In this document: in pieces, positions 55,825-64,000 of the stretch
How the letters are laid out: each line of letters begins with the position of its first letter
Numbering within the stretch: the first letter of the stretch is position 1
Made by a program: the position numbers and the translations under genes
Notes under the pieces: model-generated
Databases searched by the model: none
What the model was told of the DNA's origin: nothing
Seen by the model: only the letters and a program-made list of their open reading frames with translations
NCBI GenBank assembly: GCA_951828535.1
Contig: OX639990.1
Span: 235,300 to 299,299, forward strand
Source: an uncultured Candidatus Entotheonella sp.
Lineage (GTDB): Bacteria > Tectomicrobia > Entotheonellia > Entotheonellales > Entotheonellaceae
DNA: 64,000 nt
Direction of reading: 5' to 3'

Positions 55825-56241
55825 ATGGCCGCAGCAAGACCCCAACCCCGTTTTCCCGAGCTGGACACGCAGCCTTTCTGGGACGCTACCAAGCGCCGCG
55901 AGCTGATGTATCAGACCTGCGACGGGTGTCACGCCGTCATCTTCTACCCACGCCGCCATTGCCCCGAATGCGGTGGGCGCGATACCGCTTGGCACGTCTC
56001 CAGAGGCGAGGGGACGGTGTACACCTTCAGCGTCATCATGCAAAGCCGCCACCCGGCCTTTGCCGACTTGGGCGCCTACGCCGTGGCGTACGTAGACCTC
56101 GACGAGGGCTTCCGGCTGATGTCGAACATCGTTGGTGTGGCGGACCCAGTGCAGGACGTGAAATGCGGCATGCGGGTACGGCTGCGTTGGGAGGACCAAG
56201 GCGCCGACGCGGTGGCGCTTCCCATGTTCGAGCCGGCATAG
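55825..56241 (+). CDS. DUF35 zinc-ribbon/OB-fold protein
   Basis: The 138-residue protein has a rubredoxin-like zinc ribbon (QTCDGCHAVIFYPRRHCPECG near 30-50; Cys at 32, 35, 47 and 50 in the C-x2-C-x11-C-x2-C pattern) followed by an OB fold (GEGTVYTFSVIMQSRHPAF near 60-78 and YAVAYVDLDEGFRLMSNI near 83-100). It forms the typical pair with a thiolase-like protein, as with archaeal HMG-CoA synthase assemblies and bacterial acyl-CoA-handling complexes, where it bridges subunits. It is encoded 53 bp downstream of the thiolase with AGGAGAG before the ATG. Confidence 0.9.
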   Translation: MAAARPQPRFPELDTQPFWDATKRRELMYQTCDGCHAVIFYPRRHCPECGGRDTAWHVSRGEGTVYTFSVIMQSRHPAFADLGAYAVAYVDLDEGFRLMSNIVGVADPVQDVKCGMRVRLRWEDQGADAVALPMFEPA

Positions 56242-56466
56242 CGTGCAGGTCGGATGGCGAACATGGCGAAGATCAGGGATAGCTGACGCTGGCGAGTGTT
56301 ATGGGTAATGTTTGACAGGTTTTACTCTGTGACGCTGTGATTCCTTCACCAGTTCCTGTCGACGCGTTCACTTCGGCGGAATCAGCCTGCTGCCGCCCCT
56401 TGGTCATGCCGGCTGGAGCATTTCCGGCTCGGATTGAATGCTGTGTGGACTGGCGGCTATAGGTAG

Positions 56467-56494
56467 GTCGGGTTAGCCGCAGGCGTAACCCGAC
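56467..56494. repeat. REP-like palindrome, GTCGGGTTA type
   Basis: GTCGGGTTAGCC...TAACCCGAC, fourth related palindrome of the window, located about 12 bp past the convergent end of the Tat amidohydrolase at 56506. Confidence 0.7.
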
Positions 56495-56505
56495 ACCACG
56501 CCGCG

Positions 56506-57897
56506 CTACACGAAACCGCCGTGCAGGCGCACAAGCCGATTGAACTCGTGGCGGGTTCTCGGCCCGAAGGTCAGGAAGTGCGGGTCGGGGCTTTCCGCGT
56601 AGGCTAAGCGCCGGCTGGCGATGGCGTCACGACTGGCCCGTTTCAAAACCTCATCGGCACTGATCTTGTAAGGCCTGGTGGCGTTGAGGCCGAAGACCTT
56701 GGCTCGCAGGTCGGGCGTTATCGCCGGATAGCCGTAGCGTTCCTGAAACTCCGGCGCGATCTGGAAGGTGCGAAAAGCCTGGATCTGGTCCTGCGGCGAG
56801 CCGTACCAGATCGAATCCGTCCCCCACAAGACGTTGTTTTTCCCCACGTATTTCAACAGCTTGCCCAGGCAATGGGCGGCGCTGTCCGGGTCCCCCATCA
56901 CACCCCGCCAGGTGCTGCCGAGCTCGGCGTAGACGTTGCTGTTCGGCGGCACGCCGTTGTCCATCAGCGAGCGTACCAGCGAGTCGATGCCCTCCCGCTT
57001 GGCGTCCGGCTCGTAGGCCCGTTCCGGCTGTCCCGGCACCCAGCCCGAATGGTAGATAATGAAATCCACGTCCGGAAAGCGTTTCGCCACCACACCGACG
57101 TCGTCGCAAAGGCTGTGTTCATACGAACGCCCGCCGAACGGAATGCCCTTGTGGATGCAGATGACCTTGACGTCCAGACTGCGCGCCTTCTCGATGAACG
57201 GAATGCCGGTGTCCGGGTCGGAGAGAAAATAGCCCCGACCGTCCGGGCCCCATTGTGTATAGGTCTTCCAGGCAGCGACGCCCCAGCGTTCGGCCAATTC
57301 GTCCATGCTCTCGATATCGCCGGCTTGGTTGGGGTTGACCCGTCCGTGCAGCAGCAGGCGGTGCGAGCCTTCCAGGTCATCCACAATCTGCCGCACCGCG
57401 TCGGCCTCCCGGATCGTCAACGGCTCGCTGTCTCGGCGCGACGGTACGAACGACAGCACCATCATGTCGGTGTCGCTGTCGAGAAACACGTCCTTGATGA
57501 AGTTCTTCGGCCCCCGCGGGCTGCCCGGCCGCAGCGCCGCCTCACCGATGAAGTGGCCCTGCACGTCGAAGATGAACTCCGTGCCCCCCAGCGCCTCGGC
57601 TGCCGCTTGCGGGTCGACCGCCGCCTCGGCCGTCAGCTCGAACGCGCCGCCCCGTTTGCCTGCCGCGGCGTTCACCGTGTTGAACGCCAGTAAGGTGCTC
57701 GCCGCGCCGCACGCCGAGACCAGAAATGCCCGGCGGCCCATGCCCACCCGTCCGGCATTTTCCGCCGCCCGCTGCCGCGCCAGCCGATTCGCCTCCCGCT
57801 GCCGCGCCGTCAGGGGAATCGGGATAAACTCGCCGTTCGAGGTTGAATCCACCTTGATCGGCAGCCGCTCGCCGTCCGGGTCGTATCCTTGCATCAT
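56506..57897 (-). CDS. Tat-exported amidohydrolase-2 family protein (paralogue of 21203)
   Basis: The 463-residue protein belongs to amidohydrolase family PF04909. The N-terminal region has the SNGEFIPIPLTARQ motif near 20-33, as in the paralogue at 21203, then a Tat signal GRRAFLVSACGAASTLLAF near 54-72. The mature part has FDVQGHFIGEAAL near 109-121, IHKGIPFGG near 249-257, FIIYHSGW near 285-292, VLWGTDSIWYGSPQDQIQAF near 359-378 with the aspartate metal ligand. The two paralogues share the N-terminal extension and position of the signal, but the second is shorter. The ATG at 57897 is first in frame; no partner gene is evident. Confidence 0.83.
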   Translation of the reverse strand: MMQGYDPDGERLPIKVDSTSNGEFIPIPLTARQREANRLARQRAAENAGRVGMGRRAFLVSACGAASTLLAFNTVNAAAGKRGGAFELTAEAAVDPQAAAEALGGTEFIFDVQGHFIGEAALRPGSPRGPKNFIKDVFLDSDTDMMVLSFVPSRRDSEPLTIREADAVRQIVDDLEGSHRLLLHGRVNPNQAGDIESMDELAERWGVAAWKTYTQWGPDGRGYFLSDPDTGIPFIEKARSLDVKVICIHKGIPFGGRSYEHSLCDDVGVVAKRFPDVDFIIYHSGWVPGQPERAYEPDAKREGIDSLVRSLMDNGVPPNSNVYAELGSTWRGVMGDPDSAAHCLGKLLKYVGKNNVLWGTDSIWYGSPQDQIQAFRTFQIAPEFQERYGYPAITPDLRAKVFGLNATRPYKISADEVLKRASRDAIASRRLAYAESPDPHFLTFGPRTRHEFNRLVRLHGGFV

Positions 57898-58048
57898 GCG
57901 TTGGTCCTCCTCGGTCCTCTATCGACAGGAAAGTGAAAACAGCCCGTCCGAGGCAATGCCCCGACCCTCGTAGGGGCATCCTCGGGTGCCTATCGTCCCG
58001 ATATCCAACATCCACGAATCGTCATGCCGTTCAAAGGGGACCCCAAGC

Positions 58049-59770
58049 TCACCGCTTCGACGGCGTGAAGAAGGGTGCCGTACCGGCAGCATGATCGGTG
58101 GCGTCAATGACGGCCACAGGTCGCCCCAGGCGGGCGCGCAAAAGGGGCTCGATGCCCTGGCGGACCGTGACGATGGCGAGATTGCAGCCTTGGCAGCCGT
58201 CCTCAAGGCGGATGGTGACGCGGTCAGCCCGTGCCTCAATCAAGGTGACCCGGCCGCCGTGCACGGCGACGGCCGGGTTGATTTCCGTGTCGAGGATGGT
58301 CTGCACGCTCTCGGACAGAGCCGCCGAAGGCGTCTCCGGCCAAGCTGACCCCTGATTCCCGGGCCACATCAGTCGCACATCCGCGACCTCCGCAACCGCG
58401 CTGCACAGCAGCGTCTTCAGGTGCTTTTCAACTGGCAGAATGGCCCCCGGCGACCCGCTCGCCTCCAGGGTCACGATGCCGTCGTCGACTGACACCAGCC
58501 GCACCTTGCCACCGCGCGCGATGATCAGCGGCGCCACGCTGCGTTCCACCACGTCCCGTACTTTGGTTACGACTTCGGGCGCCGCCTCCGTTGGAGCAGG
58601 CTTTGCAGCGGGGGCGGCGCGTACGCGCCTGGAGGCATCGAGCGCGGCGGTCAAGTCCGCCAACAGGTCCTCCGGGGTCTCCAGACCAACCGACAGCCGC
58701 AGCAGGTCTCCCGGCACGGGCGAAGAGGGTCCTTCGGTGCTCAACCGGTGCTCGATCAGGCTCTCCACCCCGCCGAGCGACGTGGCGCGCTTGAACACCC
58801 GAGCCGCCGCGGCTACGGCCAGGGCCTGGTCCTCGTCGCCGGCGACCTGGATGGACAGCATGCCGCCAAACCCGCCTTGCATCTGCCGCGCCGCCGCCTC
58901 GTGGCCTGGATGCGACGGCAATCCCGGATACAGCACCGCCTTTAGCGCCGGGTGACCCTGCAACTGTTGCGCAAGCGTCAGCGCCGTTTCCGAGGCGCGC
59001 CGTACGCGGACGAACAGGGTGCGCATGCCGCGCTGCAGCAGCCAGGCCTCGAACGGCCCTAGCATCGCCCCGGCGTTGCGGCGCCACGAGCGGATGCGCT
59101 CCCAGAACGGGTCCAGCCGCGCCGTCACCACCGCGCCGGCCAGCACGTCGCTATGGCCGTTGAGGTACTTGGTGGCCGAGTGCACCACCACGTCGGCGCC
59201 CAGTTCGATGGGCCGCGTCAGCACCGGTGTCGGTACCGTGTTGTCCACCGCCACGCAGACTTGCGCCGCGTGCGCAATCTCGACCGCCGCGGCGATGTCG
59301 GTAATCTCCCACGTCGGGTTGGCCGGCGTTTCCAGCCACAACAGGCGCGTGGCGCCGGGACGTATGGCGCAGTCCAAGGCTTCGAGGTCCGTCACATCGA
59401 CAAATTCGACGTCCAGCCCCCAGGGGACAGCGAACTCCGCCAGCCACTTGCGAATGCCCCAGTACAGAATGCGGCTCACCAGCACGTGGTCGCCGGGCAG
59501 CAGCGCCTGAAACACCGCGGTGGCGGCCGCATTGCCGGACGCGAACAGGATGCAGCCGGCGCCGCCTTCCAGCACATTGAGCAGTTGTTCAGCGGGGTCA
59601 TACGTGGGGTTATCGGCGCGGGTATAGGCGCGCCCGTCGCGCAGGGAGCCGTCGGGGTGCATCTCGTAGGTGGTGGCGGGGTGCAACGGCGGCACCAGGG
59701 CGCCGGTCTCCGAATCCACCGCGCCCATGGCCTGGGCGGCCAGGGTTTCAGGCGATAGCGGTGCCTCCAT
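58049..59770 (-). CDS. PLP gamma-family lyase fused to two NifU-type domains
   Basis: The 573-residue protein joins a full cystathionine gamma-family PLP enzyme to a C-terminal tandem of NifU/Nfu-type domains. PLP half (residues 1-385): YTRADNPTYDPAEQLLNVLE near 49-68, SGNAAATAVFQ near 78-88, LETPANPT near 146-153, AVDNTVPTPV near 174-183 and HSATKYLNGHSDVLAG near 197-212 with Schiff-base Lys201. Linker (386-400) is Ala/Pro-rich. First NifU-like domain near 402-468 lacks the CxxC. Second domain near 486-560 has GCQGC (525-529), with the two cysteines of the Nfu cluster site. The fusion joins PLP-based sulfur/cysteine chemistry to Fe-S carrier chemistry. It diverges from metA over about 100 bp. 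Confidence 0.88.
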   Translation of the reverse strand: MEAPLSPETLAAQAMGAVDSETGALVPPLHPATTYEMHPDGSLRDGRAYTRADNPTYDPAEQLLNVLEGGAGCILFASGNAAATAVFQALLPGDHVLVSRILYWGIRKWLAEFAVPWGLDVEFVDVTDLEALDCAIRPGATRLLWLETPANPTWEITDIAAAVEIAHAAQVCVAVDNTVPTPVLTRPIELGADVVVHSATKYLNGHSDVLAGAVVTARLDPFWERIRSWRRNAGAMLGPFEAWLLQRGMRTLFVRVRRASETALTLAQQLQGHPALKAVLYPGLPSHPGHEAAARQMQGGFGGMLSIQVAGDEDQALAVAAAARVFKRATSLGGVESLIEHRLSTEGPSSPVPGDLLRLSVGLETPEDLLADLTAALDASRRVRAAPAAKPAPTEAAPEVVTKVRDVVERSVAPLIIARGGKVRLVSVDDGIVTLEASGSPGAILPVEKHLKTLLCSAVAEVADVRLMWPGNQGSAWPETPSAALSESVQTILDTEINPAVAVHGGRVTLIEARADRVTIRLEDGCQGCNLAIVTVRQGIEPLLRARLGRPVAVIDATDHAAGTAPFFTPSKR

Positions 59771-59782
59771 AAGCCTGCTCCT

Positions 59783-59833
59783 TTGAATCCGTTTCGGCTT
59801 CTGCTGTATACTCCCCGGCCATCTGGAATGGCC
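59783..59833 (+). promoter_or_regulatory. Predicted sigma-70 promoter and leader hairpin for metA
   Basis: TTGAAT (59783-59788) and TATACT (59807-59812) are separated by 18 bp, close to the -35/-10 consensus. A GGCCAT/ATGGCC hairpin (59817-59833) follows directly downstream of the predicted start. No SAM-riboswitch fold is obvious. The metA ATG lies at 59875. Confidence 0.6.
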
Positions 59834-59874
59834 CGCGACGCTCGCTGCTCGGCGGGAAATTAGAGGAGTCGACC

Positions 59875-60954
59875 ATGCCCCTCGTGGCGCATACCAATCT
59901 GCCCACTTTCGACCGGTTACGGCAAGGGGGCTACGACATCCTGACCCTGGATCGGGCGATGTCGCAAGACATCCGGGAGCTTCACGTCGGCCTGTTGAAC
60001 ATGATGCCGGACGCCGCCCTCACGGTGACCGAACAGCAGTACATGCGTCTCGTCGGCAACTGCAACCAGATCGTGCAATTCTACATCCATCCCTTTTCCG
60101 TCCCCGGCCTGACGCGCAGCCCTGAGGCCGCCGCTTACATCGACACGTATTACGCCGACTTTGAGAGTCTGCGCGAGGCGGGGTTGGACGCCCTGATCAT
60201 TTCCGGCGCCAACGTCACCCAGCCTTCCCTGGAATTGGAGCCGTTCTGGACGCCGTTGCGCGAGGTGATCGAGTGGGCGGCGGACAACGTGACGAGCATC
60301 CTGTGCTCGTGCCTAGCCACGCACGCGCTGGTCAAGCAATTGTATCAGATCGACCGGCACAAACTGCCAAGCAAGCAGTGGGGGGTTTACAGTCACCGCG
60401 TGCGCAATCGCCTGCACCCGCTGCTGCAGGGCATCAACACGCGCTTTGACGTGCCGCACTCGCGCTGGAACGAGGTGACGCACGATGAACTGGCGGCGGC
60501 GGGGCTGCGGGTGCTGGTGGACAGCGACGAGGCCGGCGTGCATATGGCGGTGAGTCCCGACCAGTTCCGTATCGTCTATTTCCAGGGCCATCCGGAGTAC
60601 GATTACAACAGCCTGTTGAAGGAGTACAAACGCGAGACGCTGCGTTATCTCAGCGGTGAGATTGATGACTCGCCGCCCTATCCCGAAAACTATTTCTCCG
60701 CCAGAGCCGCCGATCTGGCGGCTTCCCATTTGCGCCAGGCTACCCTGGCCAAGGCGCATGGGGAACCGCTTCCCGAATTCCCCGAAGCGGTGTTCGAGCC
60801 CCATCTCGACAACACGTGGGGCGACACGGGCAAGGCGATTTTCAACAACTGGCTGGGACTGGTGTACCGCCTGACCCATCCGGACCGCCGTCTGCCGTTC
60901 ATGCCGGACATCGACCCCCACGATCCGCTCGGCCTGAGGAACTGCCCATCCTGA
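59875..60954 (+). CDS. metA: Homoserine O-succinyltransferase-like enzyme (MetA/HTS family)
   Basis: The 359-residue protein activates homoserine for methionine synthesis. It matches the MetA fold: ELHVGLLNMMPDAALTVTEQQYMRLVGN near 34-61 in parts, SGANVTQPSLELEPFWTPL near 112-130, ILCSCLATHALVKQLY near 142-157 with the presumed nucleophilic cysteine, and VYFQGHPEYDYNSL near 238-251 with catalytic His/Glu. The N-terminus, MPLVAHTNLPTFDRLRQGGYDIL, differs from E. coli MetA, and the protein is about 50 residues longer. It may use succinyl- or acetyl-CoA; this cannot be decided. metY follows after 49 bp and would use the activated product. Confidence 0.9.
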   Translation: MPLVAHTNLPTFDRLRQGGYDILTLDRAMSQDIRELHVGLLNMMPDAALTVTEQQYMRLVGNCNQIVQFYIHPFSVPGLTRSPEAAAYIDTYYADFESLREAGLDALIISGANVTQPSLELEPFWTPLREVIEWAADNVTSILCSCLATHALVKQLYQIDRHKLPSKQWGVYSHRVRNRLHPLLQGINTRFDVPHSRWNEVTHDELAAAGLRVLVDSDEAGVHMAVSPDQFRIVYFQGHPEYDYNSLLKEYKRETLRYLSGEIDDSPPYPENYFSARAADLAASHLRQATLAKAHGEPLPEFPEAVFEPHLDNTWGDTGKAIFNNWLGLVYRLTHPDRRLPFMPDIDPHDPLGLRNCPS

Positions 60955-61003
60955 TTTTCATCCGCGAACATAGCCGTTACGACGGCAACAAAGGAGCGCT
61001 TGC

Positions 61004-62278
61004 ATGCGAGACGAAACCATAGCGATTCACGCCGGCTACGAATCTGATCCGACAACCCATGCCGTGGCGGTGCCCATTTACCAGACCGTGGCGTACGAGT
61101 TCGACAACGCTCAGCACGGCGCCGACCTGTTCAACCTGGCGGTACCGGGCAACATCTACACCCGCATCATGAATCCCACCAACGACGTGCTGGAAAAGCG
61201 GGTGGCGGCCCTGGAGAACGGTATCGCGGGGTTGGCCCTGAGCGCCGGTAGCGCGGCGGTGAACTACTCGATCCTGACCATTGCCGAGGCGGGCAACAAC
61301 GTCGTGTCGGTGCCGCTGCTGTACGGCGGCACGTATACGCTGTTCGCGCACATGCTGCCGAAGCAGGGCATCGAGGTGCGGTTCGCGGAAGACGACAGCC
61401 CGGCGAGCCTGGAGCGGCTCATCGACGGCAAGACCATCGCGGTGTTCGCGGAGACGATCGGCAATCCGGCGGGCAATATCGCCGACATCGAAGCGATCTC
61501 GGACATGGCGCACAGCCACGGCGTGCCGGTGATCGTCGACAGCACGGTGACGCCGCCGCCGCTGCTGAAGCCCATTGATTACGGCGTCGATATCGTCGTG
61601 CACTCGATGACCAAATACATGGGCGGCCACGGTAATTCGCTGGGCGGCGTGATTGTCGACAGCGGCAAGTTTCCGTGGACCGAGCACGCCGCGAAATACC
61701 CCGGCCTGACCCAGCCGGAACCGGCCTATCACGGCATCGTCTACAGCGCTGCCCTCGGCCCGGCGGCCTACATCGGGCGGGTGCGCACGGTGCCGCTGCG
61801 CAACACCGGCTCGGCGCTCAGCCCGTTCAACGCCTTCCTGCTCCTGCAGGGTCTCGAAACCCTGCCGCTGCGTATGGAGCGCCACGTGGACAACGCGATG
61901 GCGGTGGCCAACCACCTGCAATCGCACAGCCAGGTCGCCTGGGTGCAGTATGCCGGGCTGCCCGATTCCAAGTACTACGACCTGGCGCAGAAATACACCA
62001 ACGGCCGCCCCTCCGCCCTGCTCAGCTTCGGTGTCAAGGGCGGCTACGACGCCGGTGTGAAGTTCTACGACGCCCTGAAGTTGTTCAAGCGCCTCGTCAA
62101 CATCGGCGACGCCAAGTCGCTGGCAGCCCACCCCGCATCAACCACACACCGCCAGTTGAACGAGGCCGAACAAGCGGGCGCCGGCGTCACGCCCGACATG
62201 ATCCGCCTGTGTGTCGGCATCGAGCATATCGAGGATATCGTTGCGGATGTGGATCAGGCCCTCGCAGCGGCGCGGTAG
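61004..62278 (+). CDS. metY: O-acetyl/O-succinylhomoserine sulfhydrylase (MetY-type)
   Basis: The 424-residue PLP enzyme of the gamma family incorporates sulfide into activated homoserine. It has IYQTVAYEFDNAQHGADLF near 25-43, YTRIMNPTNDVLEKRVAALENG near 53-74, ETIGNPAGNI near 153-162, HSMTKYMGGHGNSLGGVIVDSG near 200-221 with the Schiff-base lysine, and SLAAHPASTTH near 370-380. The length and insertion pattern fit O-acetylhomoserine sulfhydrylase rather than cystathionine synthase. It is 49 bp downstream of metA, giving a direct-sulfhydrylation methionine pathway. The ATG has GGAGCG upstream. Confidence 0.92.
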   Translation: MRDETIAIHAGYESDPTTHAVAVPIYQTVAYEFDNAQHGADLFNLAVPGNIYTRIMNPTNDVLEKRVAALENGIAGLALSAGSAAVNYSILTIAEAGNNVVSVPLLYGGTYTLFAHMLPKQGIEVRFAEDDSPASLERLIDGKTIAVFAETIGNPAGNIADIEAISDMAHSHGVPVIVDSTVTPPPLLKPIDYGVDIVVHSMTKYMGGHGNSLGGVIVDSGKFPWTEHAAKYPGLTQPEPAYHGIVYSAALGPAAYIGRVRTVPLRNTGSALSPFNAFLLLQGLETLPLRMERHVDNAMAVANHLQSHSQVAWVQYAGLPDSKYYDLAQKYTNGRPSALLSFGVKGGYDAGVKFYDALKLFKRLVNIGDAKSLAAHPASTTHRQLNEAEQAGAGVTPDMIRLCVGIEHIEDIVADVDQALAAAR

Positions 62279-62465
62279 ATCGGATCAACGAGGCGCGATT
62301 CGACTTCCAGGCTCCAACTGTGTTGCCCCCGCCTGTCTGAGCCGTTGCGACAGGTGGGGGCATCGGGTGCGCCGTACAGGGACCGCGACACCTGAGCGGC
62401 GACTGGCCTTTGGTGTCTGGTCCCTGGAGGCTACGAAACAAACGCATTGAACGGAAAACATTGGC

Positions 62466-64000
62466 ATGGCTGAACCGGCGCAACCCATTCTTCGTCAAGC
62501 GTCCTTCCCCGGCATGTGTCCGATTGAAGACGCTTTGGAGGGCCTCGCTGCTGCCGGCATCGAAGAACGCGGCGCAATCTTCACCCGGCGCGAGGTCGTC
62601 GAATTCATCCTCGATCTGCTGGGTTACACTCCCGACAGAGCGCTGCACCAACACCGTATCCTGGAGCCGTCTTTCGGAGCCGGTGACTTTCTGCTCGTTG
62701 TTGTCGAGCGCCTGCTCAGTGCATGGAAGCGACAGGAGGGGCGGCAGGGCGCATGGCATAGCCTCAAAGACAGCATCCGCGCCATAGAGCTGCACCAAGC
62801 GTCGTACGATGCGACCTCCTTAAAGGTCATTGCCCTTCTGAGGCAAGAAGGAATTACCCCCATAACCGCCGCGCAACTCGCAGAGACTTGGCTCCTATGC
62901 GGGGATTTTCTGCAGACGCCGCTGCCGGGTGCGTTCGACCACGTCGTCGGCAATCCACCATATGTTCGGCAGGAACGCATCCCGGACGCTCTACTCGCCG
63001 AATACCGCCTGCGCTACACCACGATCTTTGACCGGGCCGACCTCTATATACCTTTTATCGAGCGTTCGCTCAGCTTGCTCTCGAAAGGGGGAGCGCTGGG
63101 TTTCATCTGCGCCGATCGCTGGATGAAGAACCGCTACGGCAGGCTGCTGCGCCGTATGGTGGCTGAGCGCTTTCACCTGAGAACCTATGTGGACATGGTG
63201 CATACGCCGGCTTTCCATAAAGACGTGATTGCCTACCCCGCCATCACCATCATCGGCAGGGAAAAGCCCGGCAAGACCCGGGCAGCACGGCGACCGGAGA
63301 TCAGCGGAAAAGCGCTGCGCGCCCTGGCCCGAGAACTCCTGTCGCCCCAAACGCCCGCGCCGGACAGCCCGGTGAAAGAATTTGCCGCAGTGGCGATGGA
63401 CGCGGAACCGTGGCTGTTGGCAACTTCGGACCAACTGACCCTGGTGCGCCGCCTGGAGCATGACTTCCCGATCCTCGAAGATACCGGATGTAAGGTCGGC
63501 ATCGGCGTGGCGACCGGTGCGGACAAGGCCTTTATCGGCCCCTATGACGAGCTGGACGTCGAACCGGACCGCAAATTACCCCTCGCCATGACCCGCGATA
63601 TCCTGAGCGGTGACGTCAAGTGGCGGGGTCTTGGCATCGTCAACCCGTTCGCTGATACCGGCGGGCTGGTCGACCTGGGTCAATACCCCAGGCTCAGGCG
63701 GTATCTGGAAGCGCGCCAGGATCAACTAGCCAAGCGCCACATCGCCCAAAAGGTTCCCGCCAACTGGTACCGCACCATTGACCGGATGGATCCGGCTCTG
63801 GCGAAGACGCCGAAACTGCTCATTCCGGATATCAAGGGAGAGGCCCATATCGTCTACGAGAACGGCCGTCTCTACCCGCACCACAATCTCTATTTCATCA
63901 CGTCCGATGCGTGGGACTTGAAAGCGCTGCAAGCGGTCCTGCAATCTGGCATCGCGCGGTTGTTCGTATCGATCTATTCGACTCGCATGCGGGGTGGCTA
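62466..64000 (+). CDS. Eco57I-type N6-adenine DNA methyltransferase, partial at right edge
   Basis: The open frame runs off the window. Visible elements are [22 protein letters not shown] near residues 33-54, the SAM-binding motif [20 protein letters not shown] near 66-85 and the catalytic [11 protein letters not shown] near 160-170, the gamma-class NPPY motif, followed by [18 protein letters not shown]-like helices. A variable target-recognition region follows (from about residue 270) and the protein continues beyond residue 511. The architecture matches Eco57I-like methylases, which often form type IIG or phage-defence modules. No restriction nuclease, helicase or partner is visible in the window. 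The start ATG at 62466 is chosen by homology; the ribosome-binding site is weak. Confidence 0.85.

Follow-up and report, generated by a model that had tools for sequence, protein, structure and literature searches.

A PLP enzyme with a predicted built-in Nfu-type iron-sulfur carrier, from a gene lineage coupled to an ATP-grasp enzyme

We analyzed a 64,000-nucleotide stretch of DNA (the window) from an uncultured Candidatus Entotheonella sp. and found a single gene that joins a PLP enzyme of the cystathionine gamma family to two NifU-like domains. Sequence and gene-order comparisons establish that this PLP enzyme carries its own predicted Nfu-type Fe-S carrier and that the lineage of the gene is linked to an ATP-grasp of the L-amino-acid-ligase type. 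Given this linkage, an undescribed pathway seems a better fit than general iron-sulfur assembly. The best explanation, to which we give slightly less than an even chance, is that the fusion serves a small, hitherto uncharacterized biosynthetic module as a conserved two-part enzyme, its PLP half having a dedicated Fe-S carrier attached.

Architecture of the fusion protein

The features of the fusion gene are as follows.

58049..59770, minus strand: fusion gene, PLP enzyme plus two NifU-like domains, 573 aa (open reading frame, Pfam, full-length homologous fusions)
58640..59749, minus strand: PLP domain, residues 8-377, Cys/Met metabolism family, 'YWxxRxW / EHRxSxEG' subfamily (PF01053, Z score, motifs)
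59168..59170, minus strand: Schiff-base lysine K201 (alignment)
58367..58579, minus strand: first NifU-like domain, residues 398-468 (secondary structure and fold match to the NFU1 CTD)
58103..58327, minus strand: second NifU-like domain, residues 482-556 (Pfam NifU at 489-554; AlphaFold model)
58184..58198, minus strand: putative cluster-binding motif GCQGC, residues 525-529 with Cys526 and Cys529 (alignment)
58055..58057, minus strand: conserved lysine K572 in the C-terminal tail TPSKR (invariant in the Nfu alignment)

The reading frame is uninterrupted over its 573 codons, without stop or frameshift, and AAGGAG lies immediately 5' of its ATG. The initial annotation had proposed a gamma-type PLP enzyme fused to Nfu domains, and the fusion is genuine: there is one intact frame, and both halves are recognized by Pfam and by predicted structures. 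Behind the PLP domain, Pfam detected two NifU stretches, the better one at residues 489-554 (E = 9e-21, 74 bits against a cut-off of 27), and no A-type domain; the NfuA model (TIGR03341) was not among the 25 best NCBIfam matches. Cysteines occur at positions 73, 134, 172, 456, 526 and 529. Only the second NifU domain presents the CxxC (526-529), within a GCQGC located where it had been annotated, and C-Q-G-C is invariant among 20 aligned fused and tandem Nfu proteins. In the first domain GSPGA (at 439) replaces the CxxC; the earlier description of this domain as cysteine-free is therefore correct for the motif but overlooks one cysteine, C456. A short C-terminal tail bearing a lysine (e.g., NPYYxPxK) is conserved in fused and ATP-grasp-linked Nfu proteins and is missing in some plain NfuA-type proteins.

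The full-length AlphaFold model (mean pLDDT of 83) contains two helix-strand-strand-helix-strand units, at residues 398-468 and 482-556. Because a structure search with the full-length model returned PLP enzymes and was uninformative on the tail, the C-terminal part was folded alone (pLDDT of 86). Its best PDB matches were Arabidopsis CnfU (2z51, Foldseek E = 3e-8) and the human NFU1 CTD (2m5o, Z = 10.9), and the fold also matched 1veh, so that the model supports the NifU assignment made from sequence. Matches to LarE (Z = 7.2-7.8) were not counted as relatives since they fell below Z = 8. Like NfuA and NFU1, the fusion has a C-terminal CxxC NifU domain with a TDHxxGxxPYF ending; in contrast to them, it appears to have a degenerate NifU domain in place of the A-type or Nfu_N domain, and its Nfu part is joined to a PLP enzyme. 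The chloroplast protein CnfU (NFU2) likewise possesses tandem NifU domains of which one lacks the CxxC, but the order is reversed, with the degenerate domain first in the fusion, and CnfU has no PLP part.

The PLP half matches PF01053 (Cys_Met_Meta_PP) over residues 8-377 (E = 1e-108, 363.8 bits against a cut-off of 27) and superimposes on cystathionine gamma-lyases and synthases with Z of about 50 (VIA-align), at 36-47% identity to the best-matching solved enzymes. The Schiff-base lysine lies within SATKYLNG, exactly as annotated, and is invariant in 13 fusion or split, 38 stand-alone and 25 canonical sequences; the PLP-binding residues Y103, D176 and R358 are conserved as well, and the subfamily also retains Y49, R51 and E336 of the canonical enzymes. 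It differs from these in presenting YWxxRxW instead of YGGTxR and a short EHRxSxEG loop instead of HPAxMTH, and its substrate pocket departs from theirs at A48, W104 and K108. All 25 best-scoring NCBIfam models remained under their curated cut-offs, including PRK07811, the best equivalog (375 against 513), and PRK07582 (314 against 440), and Aminotran_5, the family of cysteine desulfurases and class V aminotransferases, scored 18.8 bits against a cut-off of 21.5. The label of gamma-lyase or synthase type is supported by family and fold but by neither equivalog model. In the tree, a long branch separates the subfamily from canonical enzymes, and the fusion/split clade is nested among stand-alone members, mostly from Proteobacteria. 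By these sequence criteria, the PLP half is a distinct subfamily within the cystathionine gamma family.

Distribution and origin of the fusion

When about 85,000 species genomes were scanned, 14 loci gave full-length matches. The two halves are fused in one frame at 11 of these, including an independent chromosome of the same genus (87% identity), and are separate adjacent ORFs, as called in the relatives by a simple ORF picker, at the other three (L004, L011 and L012). The split junction is an ATGA overlap in L012 and a spacer with its own AGGAG in L004. A profile search of 385 sampled alphaproteobacterial genomes added two in-frame fusions (G352 and G377). The architecture is thus present in about a dozen further genomes from several phyla. 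We found no literature on a PLP-Nfu architecture, in a search that most subscription journals lay beyond and that does not prove absence.

The 15 fusion and split rows form a single clade (support 97/99), with one origin in 96% of bootstrap trees. This clade spans Tectomicrobia, Rokubacteria and Alphaproteobacteria together with MAGs labelled Chloroflexi, Burkholderiales and Acidimicrobiales; most relatives are MAGs, and the last three labels may reflect binning. The split loci group together within the fusion clade, which makes them either products of fission or descendants of an unfused state. Comparison of the two congeners gave dN/dS values of 0.08 (PLP part), 0.21 (first NifU domain) and 0.21 (second NifU domain), which indicates that both halves are under purifying selection. 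That the gene results from an assembly join or a frameshift, which would have undone the annotation, has a negligible probability: no finding speaks for it, the congener and ten more relatives carry the fusion in frame, fused and split versions recur across genomes in one clade, and selection acts on either side of the junction.

Genomic context and linkage to an ATP-grasp enzyme

Two divergently transcribed genes lie upstream of the fusion.

59875..60954, plus strand: metA, homoserine O-acyltransferase, divergent neighbor (NCBIfam NF003776, 475 bits, cut-off 358)
61004..62278, plus strand: metY, O-acylhomoserine sulfhydrylase family (TIGR01326, 626 bits, cut-off 495)

The sulfur-amino-acid context that had been read from this arrangement fits, and a further member of the fusion's PLP family lies just past the window (C1:300432-301406). 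No RNA family such as a riboswitch was detected between the fusion and metA, in a search of positions 56000-64000. The genome encodes SufB/D core genes and two IscU/SufU-type scaffolds, and at the sensitivity of our search the fusion is its only NifU-domain protein. We rejected the idea that the Nfu tail substitutes for a missing SUF system because the SUF core genes are present. Replacement of a lost Nfu protein applies to this genus only; most other fusion genomes carry more NifU proteins.

The relatives present a recurrent partner. An ATP-grasp gene (ATP-grasp_4 plus LAL_C2) lies directly 3' of the fusion or split genes in L004, L005, L011, L012 and L013, and faces the fusion in L016. L004, L011 and L012 have the PLP, Nfu and ATP-grasp genes in a row, and in L011 and L012 start and stop codons overlap as ATGA; overlaps between Nfu and ATP-grasp (ATGA or GTGA) are found in L011, L012 and L013. 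Adjacency was observed at 6 of 14 fusion/split loci against 0 of 66 stand-alone PLP loci (Fisher 1e-5, a value that overstates independence among related loci). No conserved neighbors were identified at the stand-alone relatives beyond antisense ORFs of the PLP gene and common families. The ATP-grasp gene was found in all 18 genomes tested, 15 of which are fusion/split genomes. In the fusion genomes G062-G065 it is located away from the fusion and adjoins the gene of another protein, which combines Nfu_N with two NifU domains, and in G066, G070, G071 and G035 its cluster contains the radical-SAM gene rSAM_CUAEP. This linkage, which we regard as the strongest clue to function, went unnoticed in the initial annotation because the evidence lies outside the window. 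In an alphaproteobacterial subgroup, a Rieske ring-hydroxylating oxygenase (AndAc-like) adjoins the fusion (L006, L009 and L172) or lies near it (L007).

Among the 385 Alphaproteobacteria, the ATP-grasp gene was detected in 13 genomes, all of them among the 31 with tandem Nfu proteins (Fisher 4e-16); a rule that it accompanies every tandem Nfu protein is therefore wrong. All four alphaproteobacterial fusion genomes possess it, or three of three once the genome that supplied the query is removed (p = 2e-5). The order Nfu-(rSAM_CUAEP)-ATP-grasp recurs in Alphaproteobacteria independently of the PLP fusion (L118-L122 and L173-L184). Both fusions and related GCxGC Nfu proteins neighbor the ATP-grasp gene, sometimes together with rSAM_CUAEP. 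Because ATP-grasp and Nfu genes are linked even where the PLP half is absent, the PLP enzyme may have joined later and may serve a different purpose.

The ATP-grasp proteins of L005, L122 and L016 score above the cut-offs for both ATP-grasp_4 and LAL_C2, the domains of the L-amino-acid ligases BL00235 and BacD. The best PDB match is BL00235 (3vot, E = 1e-33), a Met-Gly ligase (PMC6920838). Unlike BL00235 and BacD, the linked enzymes have a conserved GGL[C/U]S motif, and no named NCBIfam family fits them. rSAM_CUAEP proteins reach 599-633 bits on the CUAEP model (cut-off 500); the arsinothricin radical-SAM enzyme ArsL is the second-best model (NF040542), at 273-274 bits, which is below the ArsL cut-off of 450. 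rSAM_CUAEP is thus a relative of ArsL, an enzyme predicted to attach the SAM-derived 3-amino-3-carboxypropyl group to arsenic (PMC8552651). No literature naming the CUAEP family was found, with subscription journals mostly beyond the search, so that absence is not proven.

The genome studied here carries two ATP-grasp copies, neither linked to the fusion.

C1:1806751-1807992: ATP-grasp copy standing alone
C1:1276543-1279246: ATP-grasp copy with adjoining rSAM_CUAEP

In the second copy (C1:1278017-1279246, L168), as in G002 and G003, an in-frame TGA occupies the conserved Cys position of GGL[C/U]S, and the adjoining radical-SAM gene has a CUAEP tail with an in-frame TGA. The genome also contains a tRNA-Sec (C1:193160-193252, 73.9 bits). 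The ATP-grasp and rSAM_CUAEP genes likely encode a selenoprotein pair. The term "ATP-grasp" is absent from a 2026 review of prokaryotic selenoproteins.

Possible roles of the built-in carrier

The initial annotation suggested sulfur mobilization into clusters within one polypeptide. In such a scheme, the PLP half would act on cysteine, cystine or cystathionine to free sulfide or persulfide, which the Nfu half would capture for Fe-S clusters. The physical fusion and the liberation of sulfide by relatives in the PLP family argue for it, and precedent comes from beta-cystathionase and a cyanobacterial C-S lyase, both of which promote cluster formation in vitro. However, the genome provides SufB/D together with two scaffolds of the IscU type, the PLP domain presents no invariant Cys among the aligned fusions and does not belong to the cysteine desulfurase family, and the link to ATP-grasp would be left unexplained. 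Moreover, Nfu proteins are late carriers rather than primary sulfide scaffolds. NfuA/NFU1 re-supplies clusters to lipoyl synthase, a sulfur-consuming enzyme (PMC9585516). It follows that donation by the tail is more natural than a flow of sulfur from the PLP half to the tail. Sulfur mobilization as the leading idea was accordingly given up; we regard it as possible, quite improbable, and less supported than a dedicated carrier.

Alternatively, the PLP half might be an ordinary cystathionine gamma-synthase or lyase of the methionine pathway, the Nfu carrier being a co-expressed tail and the halves having no chemical cooperation. The position opposite metA-metY, the other PLP-family enzyme just outside the window, the status of the fusion as the genome's only NifU-domain protein and the close fold match to cystathionine gamma-lyase are all consistent with this. 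Against it stand the missed NCBIfam cut-offs, the altered pocket, the presence of additional NifU proteins in most other fusion genomes and the long retention of the fusion in one clade linked to ATP-grasp, and we consider this explanation unlikely. A third role, that of an Fe-S sensor whose Nfu tail would control PLP activity according to whether it holds a cluster, is suggested by the architecture only; the split genes make an obligate intramolecular switch less likely, and such a sensor appears very improbable.

We therefore return to a dedicated carrier within a biosynthetic module. Family membership suggests that the PLP half performs a gamma-reaction on a four-carbon amino acid, which would be a gamma-elimination or gamma-replacement on a homoserine-derived substrate. 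The SUF genes of the genome would build the cluster, and the CQGC motifs of two neighboring chains in the PLP oligomer could bind one cluster between them. This cluster might then be passed to a pathway partner that depends on Fe-S, or it might supply sulfur to the PLP-bound intermediate; afterwards the ATP-grasp enzyme would couple the resulting amino acid to another one or to an amine. As the only NifU-domain protein of its genome, the fusion probably also performs general late-carrier work. Three observations count against the module: the ATP-grasp genes of this genome are unlinked to the fusion, the next gene in L006, L009 and L172 is the Rieske oxygenase, and ATP-grasp and Nfu genes are also linked where the PLP half is absent. 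An Fe-S carrier built into a PLP gamma-type enzyme would offer a direct test case for the dedication of Nfu proteins to a single pathway.

Cystathionine gamma-synthases move by PLP chemistry the same four-carbon unit, 3-amino-3-carboxypropyl, that ArsL is predicted to move. Because PLP and radical-SAM enzymes both occur with the same Nfu and ATP-grasp genes, we propose, by analogy and as a rather doubtful possibility, that the fusion marks a pathway not yet described. In it, Nfu carriers and the amino-acid-ligase-type ATP-grasp would work with a PLP gamma-enzyme or, alternatively, with a radical-SAM (seleno)protein related to ArsL to place a four-carbon amino-acid group onto a cluster-derived or metal-bound atom, followed by amide formation. 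If so, two unrelated enzymes would perform equivalent transfers. The linkage to an amino-acid-ligase-type enzyme and a putative radical-SAM selenoprotein defines a concrete gene set for joint functional tests.

At the edge of the window, from 62466 to beyond 64000 (L114:14766-17248), lies a DNA methyltransferase-like gene followed by a 247-aa gene that by eye resembles a PaeR7I-type restriction enzyme; the two are probably a type II restriction-modification pair.
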